Assembly: GCF_000421465.1 (NCBI RefSeq)
Contig: NZ_ATXB01000001.1
Span: forward strand, 1-64,000
Reading direction: 5' to 3'
DNA: 64,000 nucleotides
Source: Methylohalobius crimeensis 10Ki
GTDB lineage: Bacteria > Pseudomonadota > Gammaproteobacteria > Methylococcales > Methylothermaceae
In this document: positions 38,110 through 48,852 of the stretch, piece after piece
Layout of the letters: each line of letters opens with the position of its first letter
How positions within the stretch are numbered: position 1 is the first letter of the stretch
Translations under genes and position numbers: made by a program
The notes under the pieces: model-generated
Told to the model about the DNA's origin: nothing
The model's input: the letters and a program-made list of their open reading frames with translations, nothing else
The model's database searches: none

Positions 38110-40248
38110 ATGAATCTGGTGCCATTTCCCATCATCAAATATATGCTTGCATGCTGTTTGCTCGCGGCGAGCGGCATTGCGCTTTCAGGTGTTGAAAACC
38201 GTGCCGCTGGCGAAGCCGCAGCCTTCGAAGTATTGCTTGAGGCCATTCATGCAAAATTTCAGAAGCTTCCCGCCCCAACCACCGATAGGGCCGACGGTCA
38301 CGCGATTTTCACTCATCCCTGCTCGTTCCCGCTGCCCGCGCCGCAACGGTTCGAGGCTCGAGCGTTGCGCGCCGAGGCCGATGACCTGAGGAATGACCTA
38401 GGGTTGGAGTTGCGCGGCCGCATCGCTTCCGACACTGTAACCGACAACGAAAATCAGCAGGCCTCCAGGGGCTATTTGGAATTATCCTGGGATTTACTCG
38501 AGGAAGGTTTCTTAGAAAACCGTGCTCAGGCGCGTGCTTTGAAGGCCAGAGCACAATTACTGGAACTCAGGGACGAAACCAACCGAATCAGAAACACTCA
38601 GCGCTGTGTGCAGCAGCGATTGGGCAAAGTTTTCGCGGGCTATACCGCTCGTATCCTGGCCTTGAAATTGGCGTTGATGGAGGCGATTTACCAAATCGAA
38701 AAACGCGCCTATTTCAAGGGTTGGCGCCGTTATGACGAGTTGGTGGTCAGCGATTCTGAATTGAAGCTCGCCCGCCACGAACTCAGTTACCTCTACGGTT
38801 CGCCTTATTTCGATGACGCGATCGGCACAGTGATAAATCCTCCCGCTATCGATATCGACATGGAAAAATTGATCGCGAACATACGCGCGGACGATGTGTC
38901 AGTTCGGCAAGCGCAACTGGAAAAGGAAATCATACGGCAGCAACAATTGGCTCGGAAAGATAACCAGGTGCGTTTTTTTTTGCGCGACAGTGTCTTGTCT
39001 CAAAATTCACTGGACCCTACCAATATAGCGGTCGGGGTAAGATTTCAGATACCCCTAGCGCGGAAATCGGATGCCGCTCTGCGTGAGCGTTACCACGCCT
39101 TGGATGAACGGAAGAAATTACGGCTTTGGGAGAGAGTGGCGCGAGTGCGCGAGATCTACGACGACGTGCGTTTTCAACAGAAACAATTGATTAAGCAGCA
39201 TGCCCGTTTTTTGCGCGCCGAAGAGCGCTTGCGCCAAACCTTGACCGAACTGAAACTGGGACGGCGAGACCTCTTGCCATTGGCCGCCACTCGTCTTCGA
39301 ACCATCCTGGATGCCGGATACGAGTTGATTCAGGCCAAACAATCCTTATATCAGCGCGTCAATCAAGTATTTGCCGCTGCCGGTGTATCGGTGAAGCCCG
39401 AATTTATCCATCCTTTGGACACCCGTTTCGAGGACCACCGAGCCAGAACCGGCCATAGAAGCCTTTATGTCTGGTCGAAAGCGTTCAATACTCAATCCAA
39501 TGAGCGTATTCTCTCTCTTGTACGCGCCCAGGGAATCGAGGAGGTTTTGCTTAGCGCGGGTAAATCGGTGAACAAGGACAAATTCGAAGCGTTTATCCGA
39601 GAGGCCCAGATCGCTGGTGTAACGGTTACATCAATTCTCGGAGCCAACGAATGGATTTTCCCCGAAAACCATCGACGAGCGGCGTTGGATGTCGCGATCA
39701 AAGCGGAACAGACCCGGCGCCTGCATCTGGATATCGAACCGCATACGATGCCCGGCTATCACGATGACGAAGCGCGCTATTTGCATCATTATCTGAGTTT
39801 GATGCGGACCCTACGTCAGATCATAGGCGAACGTTTTCTGAGCGTATCCGTGCCGGTGCATTGGCCCGAGTCGGTTTACCGTGAATTGGTGAAGTATGTG
39901 GATCAGGTTTACCTGATGGCATATGGCTCGGCCGATGCGGACACCATCGGACGGAGGCTCCAGAACGCGTTAAAGGCTATCCCCAAAGAAAAGCTGGTAA
40001 TCGCCTTAAACCTGCCGGATTTTCAGGACGCCTGGATGCTGGAACAAACCATCATCCACCTGTATGGCGGTTTACAAGTGGATCGTTACGCCCTGCACAG
40101 CCTCAAGTATTTTCCCGCTTTATTTGCCGGGTCGGCGGACGAACCACGCCCGTCAGGGTGGCGTACAGGGAGGTACAATCGTCAGGAAAGACGATTTGCA
40201 CAGCCGCAGGCTGCCCGTCAGGGTGGCGTACAGGGAGGTACGCCATGA
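38110..40248 (+). CDS. TolC-like outer membrane protein fused to a GH18-like domain
   Basis: A 712-residue secreted protein, first gene of a coupled operon. After a signal peptide (YMLACCLLAASGIALSG) residues about 80-430 are TolC-like: long helices (ALRAEADDLRNDLGLELRGRI; EEGFLENRAQARALKARAQLLELRDE) and a second repeat ending LKLGRRDLLPLAATRLRTILDAGYELIQAKQSLYQRVNQ. Residues about 445-672 look like a TIM barrel of the GH18/chitinase-like clan: LYVWSKAF, VLLSAG, LHLDIEPH (E543 possible acid) and QVYLMAYGS (601-607). The C-terminal 30 residues derive from a DNA repeat. It may export and trim or hold a polysaccharide; this is inference. ATG follows AAGGATGA. Confidence 0.72.
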   Translation: MNLVPFPIIKYMLACCLLAASGIALSGVENRAAGEAAAFEVLLEAIHAKFQKLPAPTTDRADGHAIFTHPCSFPLPAPQRFEARALRAEADDLRNDLGLELRGRIASDTVTDNENQQASRGYLELSWDLLEEGFLENRAQARALKARAQLLELRDETNRIRNTQRCVQQRLGKVFAGYTARILALKLALMEAIYQIEKRAYFKGWRRYDELVVSDSELKLARHELSYLYGSPYFDDAIGTVINPPAIDIDMEKLIANIRADDVSVRQAQLEKEIIRQQQLARKDNQVRFFLRDSVLSQNSLDPTNIAVGVRFQIPLARKSDAALRERYHALDERKKLRLWERVARVREIYDDVRFQQKQLIKQHARFLRAEERLRQTLTELKLGRRDLLPLAATRLRTILDAGYELIQAKQSLYQRVNQVFAAAGVSVKPEFIHPLDTRFEDHRARTGHRSLYVWSKAFNTQSNERILSLVRAQGIEEVLLSAGKSVNKDKFEAFIREAQIAGVTVTSILGANEWIFPENHRRAALDVAIKAEQTRRLHLDIEPHTMPGYHDDEARYLHHYLSLMRTLRQIIGERFLSVSVPVHWPESVYRELVKYVDQVYLMAYGSADADTIGRRLQNALKAIPKEKLVIALNLPDFQDAWMLEQTIIHLYGGLQVDRYALHSLKYFPALFAGSADEPRPSGWRTGRYNRQERRFAQPQAARQGGVQGGTP
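40148..40244. repeat. 29-bp direct repeat pair at the operon junction
   Basis: A 29-base unit (GCCCGTCAGGGTGGCGTACA... to GGTAC) occurs at 40148-40176 and 40213-40241. In the second copy GGCGTAC (40225-40231) and GTACGCC (40238-40244) form a hairpin whose loop holds AGGGAG, the ribosome-binding site of the adaptor gene. Confidence 0.8.
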
Positions 40249-41204
40249 AACTAAGAAACCGCAATCAAAATTTTTTGAACACCTTGCCGGAAGGTACCGC
40301 AAAAGTCAGTCGAACATCGAAAGTCCTGCATTGGGGGTATTTTCTCCTGCTGGCATTGCTACTGGTTTATCTTGGCCGTTATGTTTATCTGCGCCTCACT
40401 CAGATCGAAGGTTACGGGGAGGTGGTGATTGAGCGGAAACCTTTGGCTGCGGTGCGGGGTGGACGCATCGGAGCCTTGTCGGTGAAGGAAGGCGAGAAGA
40501 TACATGCAGGGCAAATGTTGGTGAGAATCGACGCCCAGGAGACCTGTTTGCCCCCGGAAGAGACCAAGTTGTTGCAAGCCGAGTACGACATTCAACAAAA
40601 ACGCGCCCACCTGGAAACGCTCCAGGCCAAATGGCGGGATCTCCATAGTGAAAGAATGCTACGCCGGGCCTTGGAACTGGACGACAGCCTCCGCCATGAC
40701 GAGCGTGAACTACCCTATCAAATCGCCTTGCTGAAAAAAGAGCTCATCCTGCAAAAGGAACATCTCAACCGCCTGCGCATGGCCAGACAATCCATGCCGC
40801 CGGCTACCGAATGCTTGCCCCAGTGGATCGAGTCGCCTGTTTCCGGCCGGGTGAATCGGGTGTTGAAACATCCCTTCGAGGTGGTCAAGACGGCCGAAAC
40901 CGTCCTGATGGTAGAGCCGGCGGAAGCCGATGTAATGATCGAAGGATATCTGAGCAAATACGATTTCAAGTCTTTGTTCGTGGGCAAGGAAATGACCGTG
41001 TTATTTCCGGATGAGAAAACTGGCAAGGGTCGTATCGTAGCCATTCATTCGGCGGCATATGCCTTTCCCGAACGAAAATGGCAGGAATACGAGCCCGCCG
41101 ACAGCCCCCTGCGTGTCACTATTGCGCCGGAAGGCCCGGGGGAGGCGAAGAAATGGAGAGCTTATAACTTGTTGCGGGTTGAACTTCGGGGGGCTCAAAT
41201 ATGA
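40245..41204 (+). CDS. HlyD-family membrane fusion protein of the polysaccharide operon
   Basis: A 319-residue adaptor with one membrane helix (residues about 28-46, GYFLLLALLLVYLGRYVYL), a lipoyl-like half (VIERKPLAAVRGGRIGALSVKEGEKIHAGQMLVRIDAQ), a coiled-coil region (about 110-195), a second lipoyl half (IESPVSGRVNRVLKHPFEVVKTAETVLMVEPAEADVMIEGYL) and a short barrel. Its ATG overlaps the upstream stop (ATGA), and its stop overlaps the next gene (ATGA). In alginate synthesis an HlyD-like part (Alg44) works with a family 2 synthase; a similar bridging role between the synthase and the TolC-like protein is inferred. Confidence 0.83.
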   Translation: MKLRNRNQNFLNTLPEGTAKVSRTSKVLHWGYFLLLALLLVYLGRYVYLRLTQIEGYGEVVIERKPLAAVRGGRIGALSVKEGEKIHAGQMLVRIDAQETCLPPEETKLLQAEYDIQQKRAHLETLQAKWRDLHSERMLRRALELDDSLRHDERELPYQIALLKKELILQKEHLNRLRMARQSMPPATECLPQWIESPVSGRVNRVLKHPFEVVKTAETVLMVEPAEADVMIEGYLSKYDFKSLFVGKEMTVLFPDEKTGKGRIVAIHSAAYAFPERKWQEYEPADSPLRVTIAPEGPGEAKKWRAYNLLRVELRGAQI

Positions 41205-42667
41205 CAAACCGGCAGGACGGCCGATTTGGACACTCTTCACTCCGCCAGAAGGGTGCGAGCCCGGGAAGACGAAGTATCAGGCGAGCGTGCTGGCTGGGGA
41301 CGACGGATGATCCGGCTTTGCCAGCCAATAAAGTATTTATCAGCGGGGATGCGGGACAGGCCGCTCGCCAGGAAAATGTGGCATTTTGGCTGGTGGACGC
41401 AACCTCGGATGAGGTCGAGGTTCGCGACGAGGTGGCTGATCTGCGTCGGCATGGGCAGCCGTCGGTTTATCTGAGGCCGATTGTTCTTATCGCTCGCCCC
41501 GGATTCAAGCGACGCCTAGGTCAAGACGAAACCGTGTCCGTTTCGGATCTGGACGAAGCCATGATCGATCGTTTGGTGGCTCGGTTCGAATCGGTCAACC
41601 AGTGGTTGGACCAAGTCGCACAGATTGGAGACGGTCCCGATACCAGCTTGATGTTCCGGGTGCTGCGCATGCTGGCCAGTCGCGGAGAGGAAGTCGATCC
41701 AGTGCGCGATGCGGGGGTATTGTCCGGCTTCAGCTATCCCTTGCTGGAAGCGCTGACCGACGGGGATTCGGACAGCCTCTTGCGCGTCTTGGAAATGCTG
41801 GAAACCCAACGGTTGATTGTTGGCCAATTCGCGACCAAAGCGTTTTTTTGCGTGCATTGTGGCTGCGCCTTCCTGAATTTCAAGGAAATCTGTCCGCAAT
41901 GCCAGGCCGAGGATTTAGATCAGCATGAATTAATCCATCATTTTCGTTGCTCTTATGTGGGCGAGAGGGACGAATTCGGACAAGGCGAGGAAAAAATTTG
42001 TCCGAAATGCGAGCGCAAACTCAAGCATATCGGTGTCGATTACGACAAACCTTCCACCATCTATCGGTGCAACCGTTGCCGTCACAGATTTCAGGAACCA
42101 TTAATCGTCACCGAGTGTTATCACTGCGGCCGCCGCACCGAACCGGAACATCAACTCCTGCGTGTAATCAAGTCGTACCGAGTGACTGCCATGGGCGATA
42201 ACGCCGCGCTTTTCGGTCTGGATAACCTGTTTTCCAAAATGTTGGAGCCCAGCTTCCATCTGATGGGTCAGGCCGAATTCAGGCACTTTCTCCAAATCGA
42301 GAAGGAACGCATTCATCGCTACCAAATTTCGGTGAGCACGCTGGTATTCATTTATCTGGACGTGGAGGCGCTGTATCTGCAATTGGGGGCGAAGGCTCCG
42401 CGCTTGTTCGAGGAGTTGACCGGTTTGTTCAAGACCTTGCTGAGGAAATCCGATCTCATCACGAGCCATAATGAATCCTTGTTCGTGTTGCTGTTGGTGG
42501 AAACCTCGGAAGATGGAGCAAAAACCGCGCTGGCGCGCTTCACCGAGGCGGTCGATCGGATGATCCATCATAATCTGGGCCACCCCATGACGATCACCAG
42601 CCGAATCGAGCCGGTTCGGTATGAAACCGACCTGAAACGAAGCCTGGATCAATTCCTGGAGCGCTGA
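41201..42667 (+). CDS. TackOD1 zinc-ribbon protein with degenerate GGDEF domain (putative c-di-GMP receptor)
   Basis: A 488-residue cytoplasmic protein. Residues about 150-310 match the TackOD1 output domain: LMFRVLRMLASRG, GFSYPLLEAL, then metal-ligand pairs C217/C220, C231/C234, HHFRC250, C267/C270, IGVDYDK, C290/C293 and C306/C309. Residues about 345-488 resemble a GGDEF domain in which the signature is NESLF (424-428), so cyclase activity is not expected. The I-site RKSD (415-418) is kept exactly five residues before it, the spacing of c-di-GMP inhibitory sites. This is like PelD. Its start and stop overlap the neighbouring genes. Role as c-di-GMP sensor for the synthase is inferred. Confidence 0.75.
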   Translation: MTNRQDGRFGHSSLRQKGASPGRRSIRRACWLGTTDDPALPANKVFISGDAGQAARQENVAFWLVDATSDEVEVRDEVADLRRHGQPSVYLRPIVLIARPGFKRRLGQDETVSVSDLDEAMIDRLVARFESVNQWLDQVAQIGDGPDTSLMFRVLRMLASRGEEVDPVRDAGVLSGFSYPLLEALTDGDSDSLLRVLEMLETQRLIVGQFATKAFFCVHCGCAFLNFKEICPQCQAEDLDQHELIHHFRCSYVGERDEFGQGEEKICPKCERKLKHIGVDYDKPSTIYRCNRCRHRFQEPLIVTECYHCGRRTEPEHQLLRVIKSYRVTAMGDNAALFGLDNLFSKMLEPSFHLMGQAEFRHFLQIEKERIHRYQISVSTLVFIYLDVEALYLQLGAKAPRLFEELTGLFKTLLRKSDLITSHNESLFVLLLVETSEDGAKTALARFTEAVDRMIHHNLGHPMTITSRIEPVRYETDLKRSLDQFLER

Positions 42668-43983
42668 TGTTTCTAGACCGGGCTTTCGCCTTCCTGTATG
42701 GCCTCGATCCTCACCGACTGATCGAATATTTCTGGCCCTTTCTATTGTTCGATTTCGTGCGTTATCTGGGGCTCGATCTTTTGATCGTGTTCGTGTATCT
42801 GCCCCGTCGCTGGTGGCAACGTACGCGGGGGCGCCGGCGGGCACTGGCCAAGTTATATCGGCTGTACCCTTTGGTTTCGATCATCGTGCCGGGAAAGAAC
42901 GAAGGCGAACATATTCCGCGCCTTGCGGTTTCCTTGCACCAGCAAACCTATGGAAACTATGAATTGATCATCGTCGATGACGGCTCGGACGATCATACCG
43001 AAACCATCTGCCGCCGGTTGGAACGTGAAGGCGCGATCGACCGCTTCATCCGTAACGAGTTCCGAGGGGGCAAGGCTTCAGCCGCCAATACCGCGCTTGC
43101 CTATGCCAATGGCGACTACATTATTCATATCGATGCCGACTCCCATCTGGATGATCGGTCCATCGAAACCATCCTGCTGCCATTTTTCATGGATGCCCAA
43201 GTGGGAGCGGTCGGCGGCGATGTGCGCGTGGCTAATTCCAAAACCAGTCTCGCCACGCGGCTTCAGACCATTGAATATATGAAGTCCATCTCCACCGGTC
43301 GGACCATCGCCTCCCTGCTAGGATTGCTGCGCATTATCGCCGGCGCGCACGGGGCGTTCAGGAAGGATATCCTGAAAAGGTTGCATGGCTGGGATGTGGG
43401 GCCGGGTCTGGATGGCGATATCACCTTGAAAATCCGCAAACTGGGCTACAAGGTGGTACACGAACCCCAGGCGATTTGCTACACCAATGTGCCTTCCCGC
43501 TTCGCCAAGCTGGCCCGCCAACGGTTCCGCTGGGACCGGTCGCTGGTGCGTTTTCGTTTGCGCAAGCACCGGGATTTATTGTTTCCGGGCCTACGGTTTA
43601 ATTTCTTCAATTTTCTGACCGTGGCCGACAATGTGTTTTTTAACCTGTTGCTGAATTTCAAATGGTGGGCCTATATCGCCCAGCTGCTTTTGATCTCACC
43701 GGTCGAGGACAAATTGGTATACATCGTATTCCTCAATTATGTTTTTTATTTGGGGATGAATATCGGGGAATACGCGATCGCCGCGCTCATTTACGGTGCC
43801 ACCATGTCGGTCCGGGAATTGAAAGTCTTGCCATATCTGCCATTGATGCCGTTTTATACCGGTCTGTTTATGAGAACGGTCAGAAGCTATGCCTATCTGA
43901 TGGAGCTGATCGTCAAGTCTTCGTATTATGATCGCTGGAATCCGTGGAAAGTATCCAGAATATCCAAGCAGGAAAGAATGTAA
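42667..43983 (+). CDS. Processive family 2 glycosyltransferase (polysaccharide synthase)
   Basis: A 438-residue inner-membrane synthase. An N-terminal helix pair (about residues 20-45) precedes a GT2 domain with SIIVPGKNEGEHIPRL, VDDGSDD (104-105 DD), HIDADSH (DAD at 156-158), LDGDI (249-252) and the processive-synthase motif QRFRW (285-289). At least four C-terminal helices follow (about 310-420). This layout is like PgaC, Alg8 and BcsA, which polymerise and translocate glycans. Its ATG overlaps the TackOD1 gene stop by one base. The sugar used cannot be told. Confidence 0.88.
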   Translation: MFLDRAFAFLYGLDPHRLIEYFWPFLLFDFVRYLGLDLLIVFVYLPRRWWQRTRGRRRALAKLYRLYPLVSIIVPGKNEGEHIPRLAVSLHQQTYGNYELIIVDDGSDDHTETICRRLEREGAIDRFIRNEFRGGKASAANTALAYANGDYIIHIDADSHLDDRSIETILLPFFMDAQVGAVGGDVRVANSKTSLATRLQTIEYMKSISTGRTIASLLGLLRIIAGAHGAFRKDILKRLHGWDVGPGLDGDITLKIRKLGYKVVHEPQAICYTNVPSRFAKLARQRFRWDRSLVRFRLRKHRDLLFPGLRFNFFNFLTVADNVFFNLLLNFKWWAYIAQLLLISPVEDKLVYIVFLNYVFYLGMNIGEYAIAALIYGATMSVRELKVLPYLPLMPFYTGLFMRTVRSYAYLMELIVKSSYYDRWNPWKVSRISKQERM

Positions 43984-44033: not shown

Positions 44034-45923
44034 TCAGGCGGTTTCAATCCGATTGCGGCCTTTTTCCTTGGCTCGGTAGAGCGCTTCGTCGGCCAAGTGG
44101 AGCAGTTGTTCCAGATCACGAGCGGGGGGGCAGGCCCCCAAACCAATGCTGACTGTGACCGGGCGTTTCAGCGTTAACTCCGTCGGCTGGTGACTCAGGA
44201 GATGACGGCGTAGGCGTTCAGCCAATTTTCCGGTAGCGGCAAGGTCTGCGTTGGGAACGATGGCGAGAAATTCTTCTCCGCCCCAGCGGCATAATACATC
44301 GGAAGCACGCAACGCTTTTTGCATGGTCTGGGCGGCATGTTGGAGCACTTGGTCGCCGGCGGTATGGCCAAGCGAGTCGTTGATGCTCTTGAAGTGATCG
44401 AGATCCAGAATCATTATCCCCAAGGGTCGGGCGTAGCGGTGGGTGGCGGCCAATTCCTGCTGCAATCGCTGCTGAGCGTAGCGGCGGTTGGGCAGGCCGG
44501 TCAACAGATCGGTGTTGGCGAGTTGCTCCAATTTACGATTGGCCAAGGACAATTCCTTCGCTTTGTGTTCCAGTTCGGTGCGCTCCTTGGCAAGCTCGAC
44601 CTGCAAAGCGGCGATTCGCTGGCTGGCGCGGATGCGTGCCAGGAGCACCTTGAGATTGATTGGTTTGGTCACGTAGTCGTCGATGCCGGCTTCGAAGGCT
44701 TCCACCAGATCGTCCTCGCTTTCATTGGCGGTGAGCATGATGAGATAGAGATGGGGTCCTAGCGAAGATCGACGTAAATTACGAGATAGGGTCAAGCCGT
44801 CCACAGGCTGCATGGTCCAGTCGGTCACCACCAATTGGGGCGGGTTTTCGAGAATCATTTTGAGGGCTTCCCGGCCGTCGCGGCAAGTACGTACCCGATG
44901 ATCGGCTTTTTGGAGTTGCTTGGACAATTTGGCCAACAGGACTGGATCGTCATCCACCAGGACAATATCCAATCCTGGCATGGATTGGAGCAGGGGCGAC
45001 CGGCCGGTCGCCCCTGCTTGCTCCTTGGGGGGGAATTCCGGCGGCAAGTCGGTGCGCACTTCGATCACTTTTCCCCACGCATGCCAGGCCGTTTCGACCT
45101 CTTCGAGAAAATCCGGGAGGCTATCTTGGTCCAATTCATGATTGCTGGCGTGCCATTCGAGTGCCGGCAAGTGTTCATCGCGTGCCTGGGCCAGGCACCA
45201 GGCGGTGATGGTCCGGGCGAAGGCGATTTGACGGGCGAGGATTTGGGTCCGAGTGTCGGATGCGGAGGCAGGTTCCTTAGAGTGAGCCAGGGCGTCGCGG
45301 AAGATTTCGGGTAGGCCCCAGTCCGCCAAAAGCAGCACGGTGAGTTTTTCCTGATCGATGGCGAAGTGCTTGCGTTCCAGATTCAGCAGGGGCGATCGGC
45401 CGGTCGCTCCTGCTATTTCGTCGCTTCCAGCCTTTTCCAGACACCGAGCGTATTCCTTCGGCCAGACGGTTGCCAGGGCAAGTCGCCCGATATCGGCCAA
45501 AAGACCCAAGGTAAAGGTTTCTTCCGGTGCGATGATTCGGTTGCGGTGAGACAAGAAACTCAATGCTACCGCCATCGCCAGGGAGCCAGCCCAGTAGCGC
45601 TCGTAATTGAAATTTCGGCATGCGCCGCCGCGGTATTTCCCCACCAGTGACAACCCTAATACAAGATTGCGCACGCCACCCATGCCGATTCGAATCACCG
45701 CGTCCTGGATCGCTACAATCGGCCGCCGGGGCGCGATCAAAGCAGAATTGGCGAATTTTAACAGGCGGCTGGTGAGTGCGGGATCGGCTTGGATGAGATG
45801 GGCTAGATCTTCCAAGGAGGCATTGTCCCGGCTGGTTAATTCCAGCATCTTCAAGGCGATCCCGGAAGGGGAAGGAAGACGGTCGGTTGCCTTCAATTCC
45901 TCGAAATTGAATTCATTCAGCAT
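44034..45923 (-). CDS. HDOD-REC-GGDEF response regulator (diguanylate cyclase)
   Basis: A 629-residue regulator. An N-terminal HDOD domain (about residues 9-230), a receiver domain (about 318-440, phospho-acceptor D368 in VVTDWTM, K420 in TKP), a coiled coil and a C-terminal GGDEF domain (about 465-629) with an active GGEEF (548-552) and an I-site RASD (539-542). It should make c-di-GMP on phosphorylation. Two copies of [10 protein letters not shown] (171-180 and 303-312) come from palindromic DNA repeats. The ATG at 45923 overlaps the kinase gene by 11 bases; an in-frame TTG at 45941 is possible. Confidence 0.9.
44990..45017. repeat. Perfect 28-bp palindrome inside the cyclase gene
   Basis: The half-site is GCAGGGGCGACCGG, repeated as a perfect inverted copy. 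It encodes part of GATGRSPLL between the HDOD and receiver domains. It resembles REP-type repeats with a GGCGACCGGCCGGTCGCC core seen in many proteobacteria. Confidence 0.88.
45385..45414. repeat. Imperfect 30-bp palindrome inside the cyclase gene
   Basis: A diverged copy of the 44990 palindrome (arms AGCAGGGGCGATCGG and CCGGTCGCTCCTGCT). It encodes a second [10 protein letters not shown] in a loop of the HDOD domain. Confidence 0.82.
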
Positions 45924-48852
45924 GGGTGAGACTTTGTTCAAGAAATTCGATTAAATGACACACGGCCGTGGTCAGTGCATGGGTTTGGTCACCGTTTACG
46001 TCGGCATCCCCACCGCGCGCGGCTTTTTCAAGGGAAGCGGCTTGCCGGCTAATCTCGGCTGCGTGAAAATGGCTCGCCATGCCTTTGAGGGCATGAGCGG
46101 CTTCAGCCAAGGTGTCGGCGTCTTTTTTGATTTGAGCCTCCTTCAGTGCCGTTAGGCGCGTGGGCGCGTCCTCCAGGAAGAGACTGATTAATTCTTCCAG
46201 TAATTCTTGATCGCCGTCCAGGGATTCGAGTACCGCTTCCAGATCGTAGATGGGCGCTTCGTTATTTTTGGTTAAATTGGGTTGGGGCGTTTCTTCCTGT
46301 GAAAGAAAGTGGGTTAAGGTTTTTTCCAGGGCTTGCTTGGTCACCGGCTTGCTGAGGTAATCGTCCATTCCGGCGTTTAGGCATTTTTCCCGTTCTCCCT
46401 CACCGGCGTGGGCAGTGAGTGCAACGACGGGCGTACGTGGTGCATTTTCTTCCTCCTCACGGATGCGCAAGGCCCGGGTCGCCTGATAACCATCCAAAAC
46501 CGGCATTTGACAATCCATCAGTACTAAATCGAAGCGTTCTTGCGCCAGTTTTTCGAGGGCAGAGGTTCCGTTTTCAACCAAGGTGACCGTCAGTTCGAAT
46601 TTATTGAGAAGCCGGGTGATGACTTTTTGGTTGACCGGGTTGTCTTCCGCCACCAAAATTTTCCGCCCTGGCCAGGTGGTGGTATCGGCGGTTTGCGCGC
46701 GGTTGCCGGTCAAGGAAGCGGAAGTGTTCTGGAGTACCTCGCTCAAGACGCGCTTGAGTTGATGAGAACGCACCGGCTTGAGGAGGCAGGCGGATATACC
46801 GAGTCGTTTGCGCCTTTCGGCGTCGAGCGTCGCGCCGGAGGATAACAGCAATCGGGGGATGGTCGCCAGATGAGGCATGGCTTGGATGGCTTCGGACAAT
46901 TGATTGCCGTCCATTCCAGGCATGTGAAAATCCAGAATGATGGCATCGAACGCCGCATCCCGGGTAAGCAGGGAAAGGGCCGTATGACCCGACTCGGCTT
47001 CCACGACGGTCAGGCCCAGATGGGTTAAATGGGTGGAAAGGATACGGCGATTGGTGGCGTTATCATCCACAATCAGCACCCGTTTGCCATTCAAGTCCAC
47101 GGGGATTGTGGAGGGCGACTTTTCGACGGAGGGTAAAGACAATTCGAACCAGAAGGTGCTGCCCTGCCCTGGCGTGCTTTCCATCCCGATCTTACCACCC
47201 ATGCGCTCGATCAGTTGTTTGCCAATGGCCAGCCCAAGTCCGGTGCCGCCATAATGGCGGGTGGTGGATACATCGGCTTGCGTAAACGGCGTAAATAGAT
47301 GGGTTTGTACTTGGGGGGCGATCCCTATGCCCGTATCACGGATCTCGAATCGAAGGTTTTCCTTGGTGTGATGCTCGCCTTCCCTGGTTCCGTCCCCCTT
47401 CGGGGCGCAGTCTGTGCGTCCCGATCGGCTTTCCTGCCGATTGGTCGGACGCAATTCGACGGTTACCTCGCCACAATCGGTAAATTTGATTGCATTTCCG
47501 ACAAGATTAGTGAGAACTTGGCGGATCCGGGTCGGGTCGCCAAGGCGACCGGGACTCAGCTCGGGTGGGATCAGCAAATTCAGCTCGATTCCCTTGGCAT
47601 GAGCATGTGGAGCAAGGACGGTACAAGTTTCCTCGATTAATTCGGTTAAATCGAAGGACGTCGCTTCGATATCCAGTTTTCCCGCTTCTAATTTGGAAAA
47701 ATCGAGAATATCGTTCAGGATGTCCAGCAGGGCCTCGGCGGAGCCGGCGGCAGTTTCCAACAGATCGCGTTGTTCCTCGTTAAGGGAGGTATCCTTGAGG
47801 AGCTCCAGCATCCCCAGCACGCCGTTCATGGGGGTACGGATCTCATGGCTCATGTTGGCGAGAAACGCGGCTTTCGCCTGGGCTGTTTGAAGGGCCTCGT
47901 CGCGGGCCGTGGCCAAGGCCAGGCGGGTTTCTTCCTGAACCAAACTCAGTGCGACGAGTTCTCCCACCTGCAGCAGTAACGCCTGACGGGTGGGGTCCCA
48001 ACTCGGGTAGGGATCGGTGTAGAGAAAAAGAACACCCATTATTTCCTCACCATGACGAAGGGGAATGATGTAGTGCCCGTGGGGTTGCATTCCTGAAAAA
48101 GAATGTTCGTGGCGAGGGTCGCAAAAGCAATCGTCTGAAACCAATACTTCCCCCGACACGGCCGCTCGACCGCACAAGCACGCTCCTAAGGGAATGCGTT
48201 GTTCCTTTTGCCGAAATTCGTCGGAGAATTGGCCGTGGAGCAAAAACAGCTCCAGACGGTCCTCATGTTTCTTAAACAAACCACCCTTACGTTGCAACGT
48301 CATTCCAGGGAGACCGAATAAGACTTCCATCACTTGGGTGAGCCGCTTTTCGAGGGAAGCGGAACCTGCTAGGATCTTGGCGATCTTGAAGCGTGCTTCG
48401 GTGTCGGCCTGCTCGCGCTGTAGGCGAGCCTCTCTCTCCACTTCCGCGCTGATGTCCCGCTGGATTTGAACATAGCCGACGAGACCGTCTTTTGCGGAGT
48501 GAATCGGAGAGACGGTCATCTCCGCCCAATACTCGGATAGGTCGGAAGGAGGCATTTGCCCCTCAATAGGAAGGGGGAAAGGCTGCTTGCTTTTACGCCG
48601 TTGCAGAACTCTGCCCGCCCAGGATTGACCCGCCTTTAAAGCGGAAGCCATTTCCGCCAAAGTGTTCGGGTCGGCCTTGGGGCTATCCAGGACCTGAGGA
48701 GTGCGGCCGATGAGTTCTTGCGCCTCGTAACCGCTACTTTGACACAGGGTGGGATTGACATAACAGATCCGTCCCTTGGCGTCGACGAGGAGGATCATTT
48801 CGGAGCTGGCGTCCAGTATTTGGTGAAGTTCTTGATTCTGGTGGGTTTGCAT
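45913..48852 (-). CDS. Hybrid sensor histidine kinase (PAS-GAF-HisKA-HATPase-REC-REC-HPt)
   Basis: A 979-residue soluble kinase. PAS (about 5-135), GAF (about 155-305) with a Cys/His-rich patch ([19 protein letters not shown]), HisKA with H336 ([12 protein letters not shown]), HATPase (N-box [26 protein letters not shown]), receiver 1 with D641, receiver 2 with D780, and an HPt domain with H920 ([12 protein letters not shown]). About 30 extra residues (469-498) sit in the ATPase domain. No membrane helix, so the signal is probably intracellular. It overlaps the HDOD-REC-GGDEF gene, its likely phosphotransfer target. Confidence 0.92.

Follow-up and report, generated by a model that had tools for sequence, protein, structure and literature searches.

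The first 64,000 nucleotides of contig NZ_ATXB01000001.1 of Methylohalobius crimeensis 10Ki (RefSeq assembly GCF_000421465.1), referred to here as the window, contain at positions 38110-43983 a cluster of four co-directional genes on the + strand, from whose deduced proteins we infer a polysaccharide product. An initial annotation, made from the letters of the window, had described the cluster as a possible undescribed operon for polysaccharide synthesis and export controlled by cyclic di-GMP (c-di-GMP). Its gene layout was confirmed from the open reading frames (ORFs) and the sequence. The genes encode an exit protein that joins a TolC-type channel to a barrel resembling glycoside hydrolase family 18 (TolC-GH18), an HlyD adaptor, a protein with a TackOD1 domain (Tack) and a family 2 glycosyltransferase (GT2), and they overlap at each of the three junctions: ATGA at 40245-40248 between TolC-GH18 and HlyD, ATGA at 41201-41204 between HlyD and Tack, and TGATG at 42665-42669 between Tack and GT2. 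The features of the cluster are the following.

38110-40248, + strand: TolC-type outer-membrane channel protein with a C-terminal GH18-like (beta/alpha)8 barrel, 712 amino acids
39448-40149, + strand: GH18-like barrel, about residues 447-680 (447-679 in the structural alignment; eight strands in the model)
40148-40175 and 40213-40240, + strand: 28-bp perfect direct repeat just before the HlyD start, supplying the odd C-terminal tail of TolC-GH18
40245-41204, + strand: HlyD-family periplasmic adaptor, 319 amino acids from the ATG (Pfam HlyD_3, E = 3.5e-9, above cut-off)
41201-42667, + strand: Tack protein, 488 amino acids, with a tentatively receiver-like N-terminal region, TackOD1 zinc ribbons and a degenerate GGDEF domain
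42443-42484, + strand: I-site R415-K-S-D418 and degenerate active site NESLF (residues 424-428), from alignments
42667-43983, + strand: GT2 synthase, 438 amino acids, with motifs D, DxD, D and QxxRW (Pfam GT2, E = 1.9e-27, above cut-off)

Proteins of the cluster

The list of parts given by the initial annotation was borne out by Pfam for three of the proteins, and folds or profiles back the OEP, GH18 and GGDEF assignments. In the 712-amino acid protein, the Pfam matches to OEP (E = 0.0065) and GH18 (E = 0.048) are both under the cut-off. Its AlphaFold2 model, built from 47 sequences with a predicted local distance difference test (pLDDT) score of 87.6, shows a TolC protomer and, C-terminal to it, an eight-stranded barrel. 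The top Foldseek match of the model is TolC (E = 5.8e-11), and the barrel (residues 447-679) superposes on GH18 chitinases (Z 20.0, root-mean-square deviation [rmsd] 2.6, 215 residues aligned, 3co4). The chitinase-type (beta/alpha)8 fold is therefore present, while the full DxxDxDxE motif is replaced by RxxHxDxE and the Pfam score is 13.7 bits against a cut-off of 29.6. Because the classical motif is incomplete and the score is below the cut-off, the barrel is labeled GH18-like. As the termini of TolC lie in the periplasm, the barrel should stand beside the tunnel on the periplasmic side and not outside the cell.

In the model, D541, E543, M603 and Y605 lie where barrel strands 4 and 6 end, the location of the catalytic residues in GH18 enzymes. 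These four residues occur together in 57 of the 63 aligned TolC-GH18 rows, a count in which two records appear twice, and the same six rows, L019 and five Bacteroidales, lose all of them. Since the loss is joint, the pattern suggests that the residues act as a set. Enzymatic activity of the barrel is likely but not certain because the upstream Asp positions of the motif are not kept. A different possibility is that the barrel serves the channel as a collar, either structural or sugar-binding, rather than as an enzyme. The missing upstream Asp, the His that occupies the position following it in 60 of the 63 rows, the six rows devoid of catalytic residues, and the chitinase-like lectins that have the same fold (4uri) all speak for a collar, but joint retention and joint loss are what a catalytic set would show, and we regard the collar as rather unlikely.

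About 36 residues of the TolC-GH18 reading frame are added by the direct repeat, of which a third copy with one mismatch is located at G000:C1:515631. The last ~36 residues of the ORF are missing in the four other rows of alignment A2 and have low pLDDT. This tail is repeat-derived and not family sequence; a functional role for it was rejected on that ground. An additional AMIN domain (Pfam E = 5.1e-13) is found at the N terminus of the exit protein in a divergent cluster (L094, 10932-13439).

The HlyD protein has one N-terminal hydrophobic stretch, at about residues 25-51 according to hydropathy. Its ORF begins at GTG 40158 in the mechanical ORF list, and the 319 amino acids are counted from ATG 40245. 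In the Tack protein, Pfam recognizes TackOD1 above cut-off (E = 1.1e-50) and GGDEF below it (E = 0.016). The model of Tack, built from 63 sequences (pLDDT 88.6), has a GGDEF fold at about residues 341-488 (Z 14.7, 138 aligned), and a profile matches the protein to a solved GGDEF domain with E = 1.3e-14. The receiver-GGDEF proteins DgcR, PleD and WspR align from Tack residues 18-27 onward with rmsd values of 5.8 to 21.8 Å, and for this reason the N-terminal region can be called receiver-like only tentatively. As expected of an I-site receptor, an RxxD motif stands five residues before the GGDEF position, and the active site is degenerate. The profile aligns the RKSD of the window with the RKSD of DgcR, where chains 6zxb and 6zxc read AKSA; 6zxb is titled as an I-site mutant. 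Tack R373 and R446 presumably correspond to R313 and R390 of PleD. The five-residue spacing is that of the RxxD receptor motif (PMC5567048; this and the other papers given by PMC number are cited from excerpts), and the receptor PelD requires R402 besides R367 and D370 (PMC8461298).

Recurrence of the gene set and relation to Mxd

The Tack alignment was scanned against one genome per species (84,980 species), and the best 80 of 105 relatives were kept. According to family profiles, GT2 adjoins Tack in 77 of these 80 loci, HlyD is present in 75 and TolC-GH18 in 58, with one additional weak partial match in L084. The initial annotation had expected the four genes to form a neighborhood with a conserved order and had counted rare co-occurrence against its proposal; co-occurrence turned out to be the rule. 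A contig end truncates L045 but neither of the other two loci without GT2 (L021 and L086); of the five loci without HlyD, four are truncated in this way and L086 is a true absence. Three arrangements were found: TolC-HlyD-Tack-GT2, which is that of the window, Tack-GT2-TolC-HlyD, and Tack-GT2-HlyD without TolC-GH18, the latter in Vibrio, Photobacterium, Psychromonas and Motilimonas. The carriers, identified from record titles and tree labels and including many metagenome-assembled genomes (MAGs), represent about ten phyla: Pseudomonadota, Thermodesulfobacteriota, Myxococcota, Campylobacterota, Aquificota, Synergistota, Fibrobacterota, Gemmatimonadota, Bacteroidota, Balneola-type bacteria and Caldisericaceae. 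For the five main junction types, the median gene gaps fall between -4 and +1 bp. Of 96 Tack-GT2 pairs, 65 overlap and 95 are no more than 30 bp apart, and the GT2 motif residues are present in 95 to 97 of 97 rows; these pair, gap and motif counts include two records twice (L039 = L167 and L041 = L168), and some hosts are near-copies (e.g., L029, L030 and L031). Since it recurs in distant phyla with such short gaps, the gene set is more than chance.

Linkage was also assessed from a second seed. When the TolC-GH18 profile was run against 398 genomes of the phylum of the window, nine genomes among the matches listed had a strong match (E <= 8.9e-50), seven of them in complete clusters. The other two are G787, cut by a contig end, and G866, which was matched in two pieces and is without Tack. 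The 150 of 398 genomes with any profile match were not accepted as carriers, as the weaker matches listed lie in the TolC part; the exceptions among the matches listed are two barrel-only proteins, L174 and L175, both in other contexts. In a single-protein search of the class, the exit protein was found in 4 of 229 genomes, and one of the four, a partial match, turned out to be a divergent version of the four-gene cluster.

Relatives of individual components were seen in other settings. In G866 (L173, 7146-11236), a polysaccharide deacetylase gene adjoins the one for the TolC-GH18-like protein, and the 19 kb examined contain no match to Tack, HlyD or GT2; here the exit protein perhaps serves a different export system. 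In G600 (L174, 7632-12885), the gene for the barrel-like protein lies opposite a deacetylase gene and a GT2 gene, a group that resembles the set for poly-N-acetylglucosamine (PNAG). A Tack-type protein annotated as a diguanylate cyclase (L132) is encoded in the 29-kb mobilizable plasmid NZ_AP024951.1 of Aeromonas caviae. In plasmid CP081100.1 (L133, 5833-10455), the gene after Tack-GT2-HlyD is annotated as a UDP-glucose 4-epimerase, which gives a clue to the sugar donor of this relative. Close to the window, the Tack protein was found in none of the nine genomes of its own genus and in 1 of 51 other genomes of the order (G015). This patchy distribution, together with a G+C content of 53.6% in the cluster versus 58.1% in the window, hints at horizontal gain of the cluster.

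The initial annotation had also held that this set of proteins belongs to no known system and that a match to a named one would speak against it. This is true of the TolC-GH18 protein, to which nothing at the mxd locus of Shewanella corresponds, and not of the other three components, which are those of mxdABC (HlyD by profile only). The mxd locus of S. oneidensis MR-1 was located with the published mxd promoter primer (PMC3691769, Table 2), which had a match in a single genome among the 129 searched in the genus of G318, with all five primer parts matching there; the mxd primers had no match in another set of 21 loci. Downstream of the primer site are genes for a 462-amino acid Tack, a 442-amino acid GT2, a 362-amino acid HlyD and a 122-amino acid protein without a Pfam match. 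The first, MxdA, matches the window-family Tack profile (3e-59) and TackOD1 (238.7 bits), aligns with the window protein at 26% over 260 residues (E = 8e-29), and has an RxxD motif. MxdB matches the GT2 profile (5e-106) and aligns at 31% over 405 residues (E = 1e-48), and MxdC is recognized by profile (5e-20) with a weak pairwise BLAST match (E = 0.009). By tblastn, MxdD (the 122-amino acid protein, by position) was found only at its own locus among 97 loci, window included, so the cluster is named Mxd-like and not mxdABCD; MxdD has been described as lacking a known homologue (PMC3691769).

The likeness thus consists of a TackOD1 protein with a degenerate GGDEF domain, a GT2 and an HlyD protein in one operon, and the differences are the gene order, Tack-GT2-HlyD in mxd, and the exit protein. 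There is no TolC-GH18 gene in the 11 kb around the mxd locus. In the 13 genomes with the three-gene form, S. oneidensis included, no match to the TolC-GH18 profile (E <= 1e-5) extends beyond position 467 of 684, and these genomes therefore have plain TolC and no TolC-barrel fusion. Because the mxd locus has Tack, GT2 and HlyD without TolC-GH18, the window cluster is, by homology, Mxd-like with one added component. Its core is known as Mxd, and what is new relative to Mxd is the TolC-GH18 exit protein, the phylum-wide spread and a branch in Bacteroidota and Balneola-type hosts without GGDEF matches. The mxd genes are a putative exopolysaccharide cluster required for aggregation and biofilm formation (PMC3691769), and papers citing Gambari 2019 report MxdA to be an effector that binds c-di-GMP and is thought to set off the synthesis of exopolysaccharide (PMC7666153, PMC11395469). 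The term "Mxd" does not occur in a review of c-di-GMP control of exopolysaccharides (PMC8461298), no product or exit route is named in the excerpts of the Mxd literature examined, and neither a described TolC-GH18 or TackOD1 polysaccharide system nor a description of the three new elements was recognized among titles and abstract openings in open-access literature.

I-site arginines and host GGDEF content

Host genomes were searched with the GGDEF profile. None of the 22 Bacteroidota/Balneola-type hosts tested had a match over the cut-off, and three of them had marginal matches (E from 7e-4 to 1e-3). Four gammaproteobacterial hosts searched alongside had 27 to 55 matches each, and 49 of 50 other hosts had at least three matches at E <= 1e-15, the exception being L085. 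Among proteins from GGDEF-bearing hosts, that of the window included, 52 of 54 have Arg at position 415, versus 4 of 22 among those from GGDEF-less hosts. The set of 54 leaves out L030, L036, L077, L081 and L085; the first four, which were left out of the host search, keep R415. When the five are added (59 proteins), R373 is conserved in 57 of 59 versus 1 of 22 and R446 in 50 of 59 versus 2 of 22, whereas D418 is found in 59 of 59 and 21 of 22. The eleven Cys residues and His246 of the zinc ribbons are present at 100% in both host groups.

We read these patterns as pointing to c-di-GMP as the Tack ligand where the arginines are kept, window included, and to TackOD1 as the part that the machine may be unable to lose. 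Control by c-di-GMP, claimed in the initial annotation, is thus favored by the I-site evidence in this host and probably fails for the family as a whole, since none of the 22 Bacteroidota/Balneola-type hosts has a GGDEF match over the cut-off.

Proposed mechanism and alternatives

The cluster probably encodes a synthase-dependent exopolysaccharide machine of the Mxd type that has a dedicated exit in the outer membrane and a c-di-GMP switch. This reading is based on the linkage observed from two seeds, the homology to Mxd together with the published mxd findings, the GT2 motifs, the I-site arginine pattern, and the GH18 fold with its jointly kept catalytic residues. Genes, folds, linkage and I-site conservation are computed; polymer, binding and enzyme activity are predicted. 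In the proposed pathway, c-di-GMP would bind the I-site of the degenerate GGDEF domain in the cytoplasmic Tack protein, as reported for the homologue MxdA, and Tack, probably through the TackOD1 zinc-ribbon module, would turn on the adjacent GT2. The motifs of GT2 suggest that it would polymerize the sugar chain and move it across the inner membrane, and the folds and gene linkage suggest that HlyD would connect GT2 to a TolC trimer, the way out for the chain. The GH18-like barrel on the periplasmic side may cut stray or jammed chains by analogy with AlgL, BcsZ and PgaB, which do so in their systems. As GH18 enzymes use the N-acetyl group of their substrate, a polymer that contains N-acetylhexosamine is a plausible but tentative prediction.

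Several observations weigh against this reading. The cluster persists in the six rows without catalytic residues, the GH18 motif is incomplete with its upstream Asp positions not kept, and the three-gene form manages without TolC-GH18, with no fusion in 13 genomes. In pairwise comparisons of the synthase, PgaC (118 bits) is not far behind MxdB (159 bits). An indirect effect of MxdA on c-di-GMP levels has been reported as well (PMC3691769, PMC3409153). Positions other than the arginines drop in the GGDEF-less group (T435 from 0.86 to 0.18 and N226 from 0.90 to 0.41), and L085, a MAG without a GGDEF match, keeps R415, which makes the count 5 of 23 if it is included. The L085 contig is filed under a Methanomethylovorans MAG and its Tack protein groups with Synergistaceae, so a binning error is suspected. 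Furthermore, the GGDEF-less hosts, several of them near-copies and most of them MAGs, form one clade on the Tack tree (one change, one independent pair). The I-site contrast is consequently one evolutionary case, and a Fisher p of 1e-11 for R415 was rejected as a measure of the strength of the evidence. On the same tree, R415 needs five changes and R373 needs four, a decay inside the GGDEF-less clade.

The same secretion machine could operate with c-di-GMP not as the main switch, with the GGDEF domain as a scaffold and the signal entering through the receiver-like region or a partner such as CheY. Persistence of the cluster in 22 hosts without GGDEF over the cut-off, the alignment of some receiver-GGDEF proteins from the Tack N-terminus, and the interaction of MxdA with CheY3 (PMC7666153) are in line with this option. 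It is nonetheless unlikely: the arginines R373, R415 and R446 are retained in hosts with GGDEF enzymes, and the rmsd of 5.8 to 21.8 Å makes the receiver-like match a loose one.

Comparison with other polysaccharide systems bears on the alternative that the cluster is a divergent PNAG or cellulose operon. E. coli PgaC is related to the window GT2 (30% over 273 residues) and PgaC/IcaA is its best NCBIfam match (155.8 bits); PgaB is a barrel hydrolase on an export component, and Foldseek matched the exit protein to the C-terminal barrel of PgaB, among others. However, GT2 misses the cut-offs of the PgaC equivalog for PNAG (422.3) and, with 32.4 bits versus 699.1, the BcsA/CelA equivalog for cellulose, as the initial annotation had maintained, and filing the cluster under either name on GT2 similarity was rejected on this basis. 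PgaB is a deacetylase-hydrolase and the exit of PNAG is, by annotation, PgaA and not TolC, while the cluster proteins have no deacetylase, PgaA-type or Bcs domain in Pfam or NCBIfam. We therefore consider this alternative very unlikely. Even less probable is that HlyD and TolC export some other cargo and GT2 is a separate enzyme merely nearby, for although both folds are generic export parts, the four-gene unit has no pump gene and HlyD accompanies Tack and GT2 in loci where TolC-GH18 is missing.

Other systems share some of the parts. In Pel, PelD is a degenerate GGDEF protein with RxxD and a further Arg that acts as c-di-GMP receptor for polymer synthesis, but PelF is a GT4 enzyme (PMC8461298) where the window synthase is GT2, which sets the cluster apart from Pel, and PelD has GAF and membrane helices and no TackOD1. 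The Pss system of Listeria includes PssE, a degenerate GGDEF I-site receptor needed for exopolysaccharide synthesis, and a putative glycosidase in the cluster (PMC4125290), but this Gram-positive organism has no outer membrane and therefore no TolC exit. In BgsBA, responsible for the rhizobial mixed-linkage beta-glucan and compared here by its description, a c-di-GMP-activated GT2 lies beside an HlyD-like protein, but c-di-GMP binds to the C-terminus of the synthase itself, and the bicistronic system has no Tack-type receptor in the excerpted description (PMC9495663).

Two convergent genes lie next to the cluster.

44034-45941, - strand: HDOD-REC-GGDEF protein with an intact GGEEF active site (Pfam), beginning 50 bp past the cluster
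45913-48852, - strand: hybrid histidine kinase (PAS, GAF, HisKA, REC, Hpt; Pfam)

From its position, the first is a possible c-di-GMP source for the cluster, and the pair may form a local source of the messenger.

A wider proposal, possible rather than probable, is an unclassified secretion class that crosses phyla and of which Mxd would be a reduced form. It would comprise a chitinase-like enzyme in the duct, an N-acetylhexosamine (chitin-like) chain, and TackOD1 as a general synthase switch with c-di-GMP as a plug-in input that was unplugged or replaced in Bacteroidota and Balneola-type bacteria. For Mxd-type systems, a candidate exit and a clue to the polymer content come from the four-gene form, so the product and exit of Mxd become testable. 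This form also suggests a candidate job for TackOD1, a domain whose function was called obscure in 2018 (PMC5847659), and the branch found in hosts without detectable GGDEF proteins may serve as a natural experiment in which the switch of the synthase is uncoupled from the second-messenger input.

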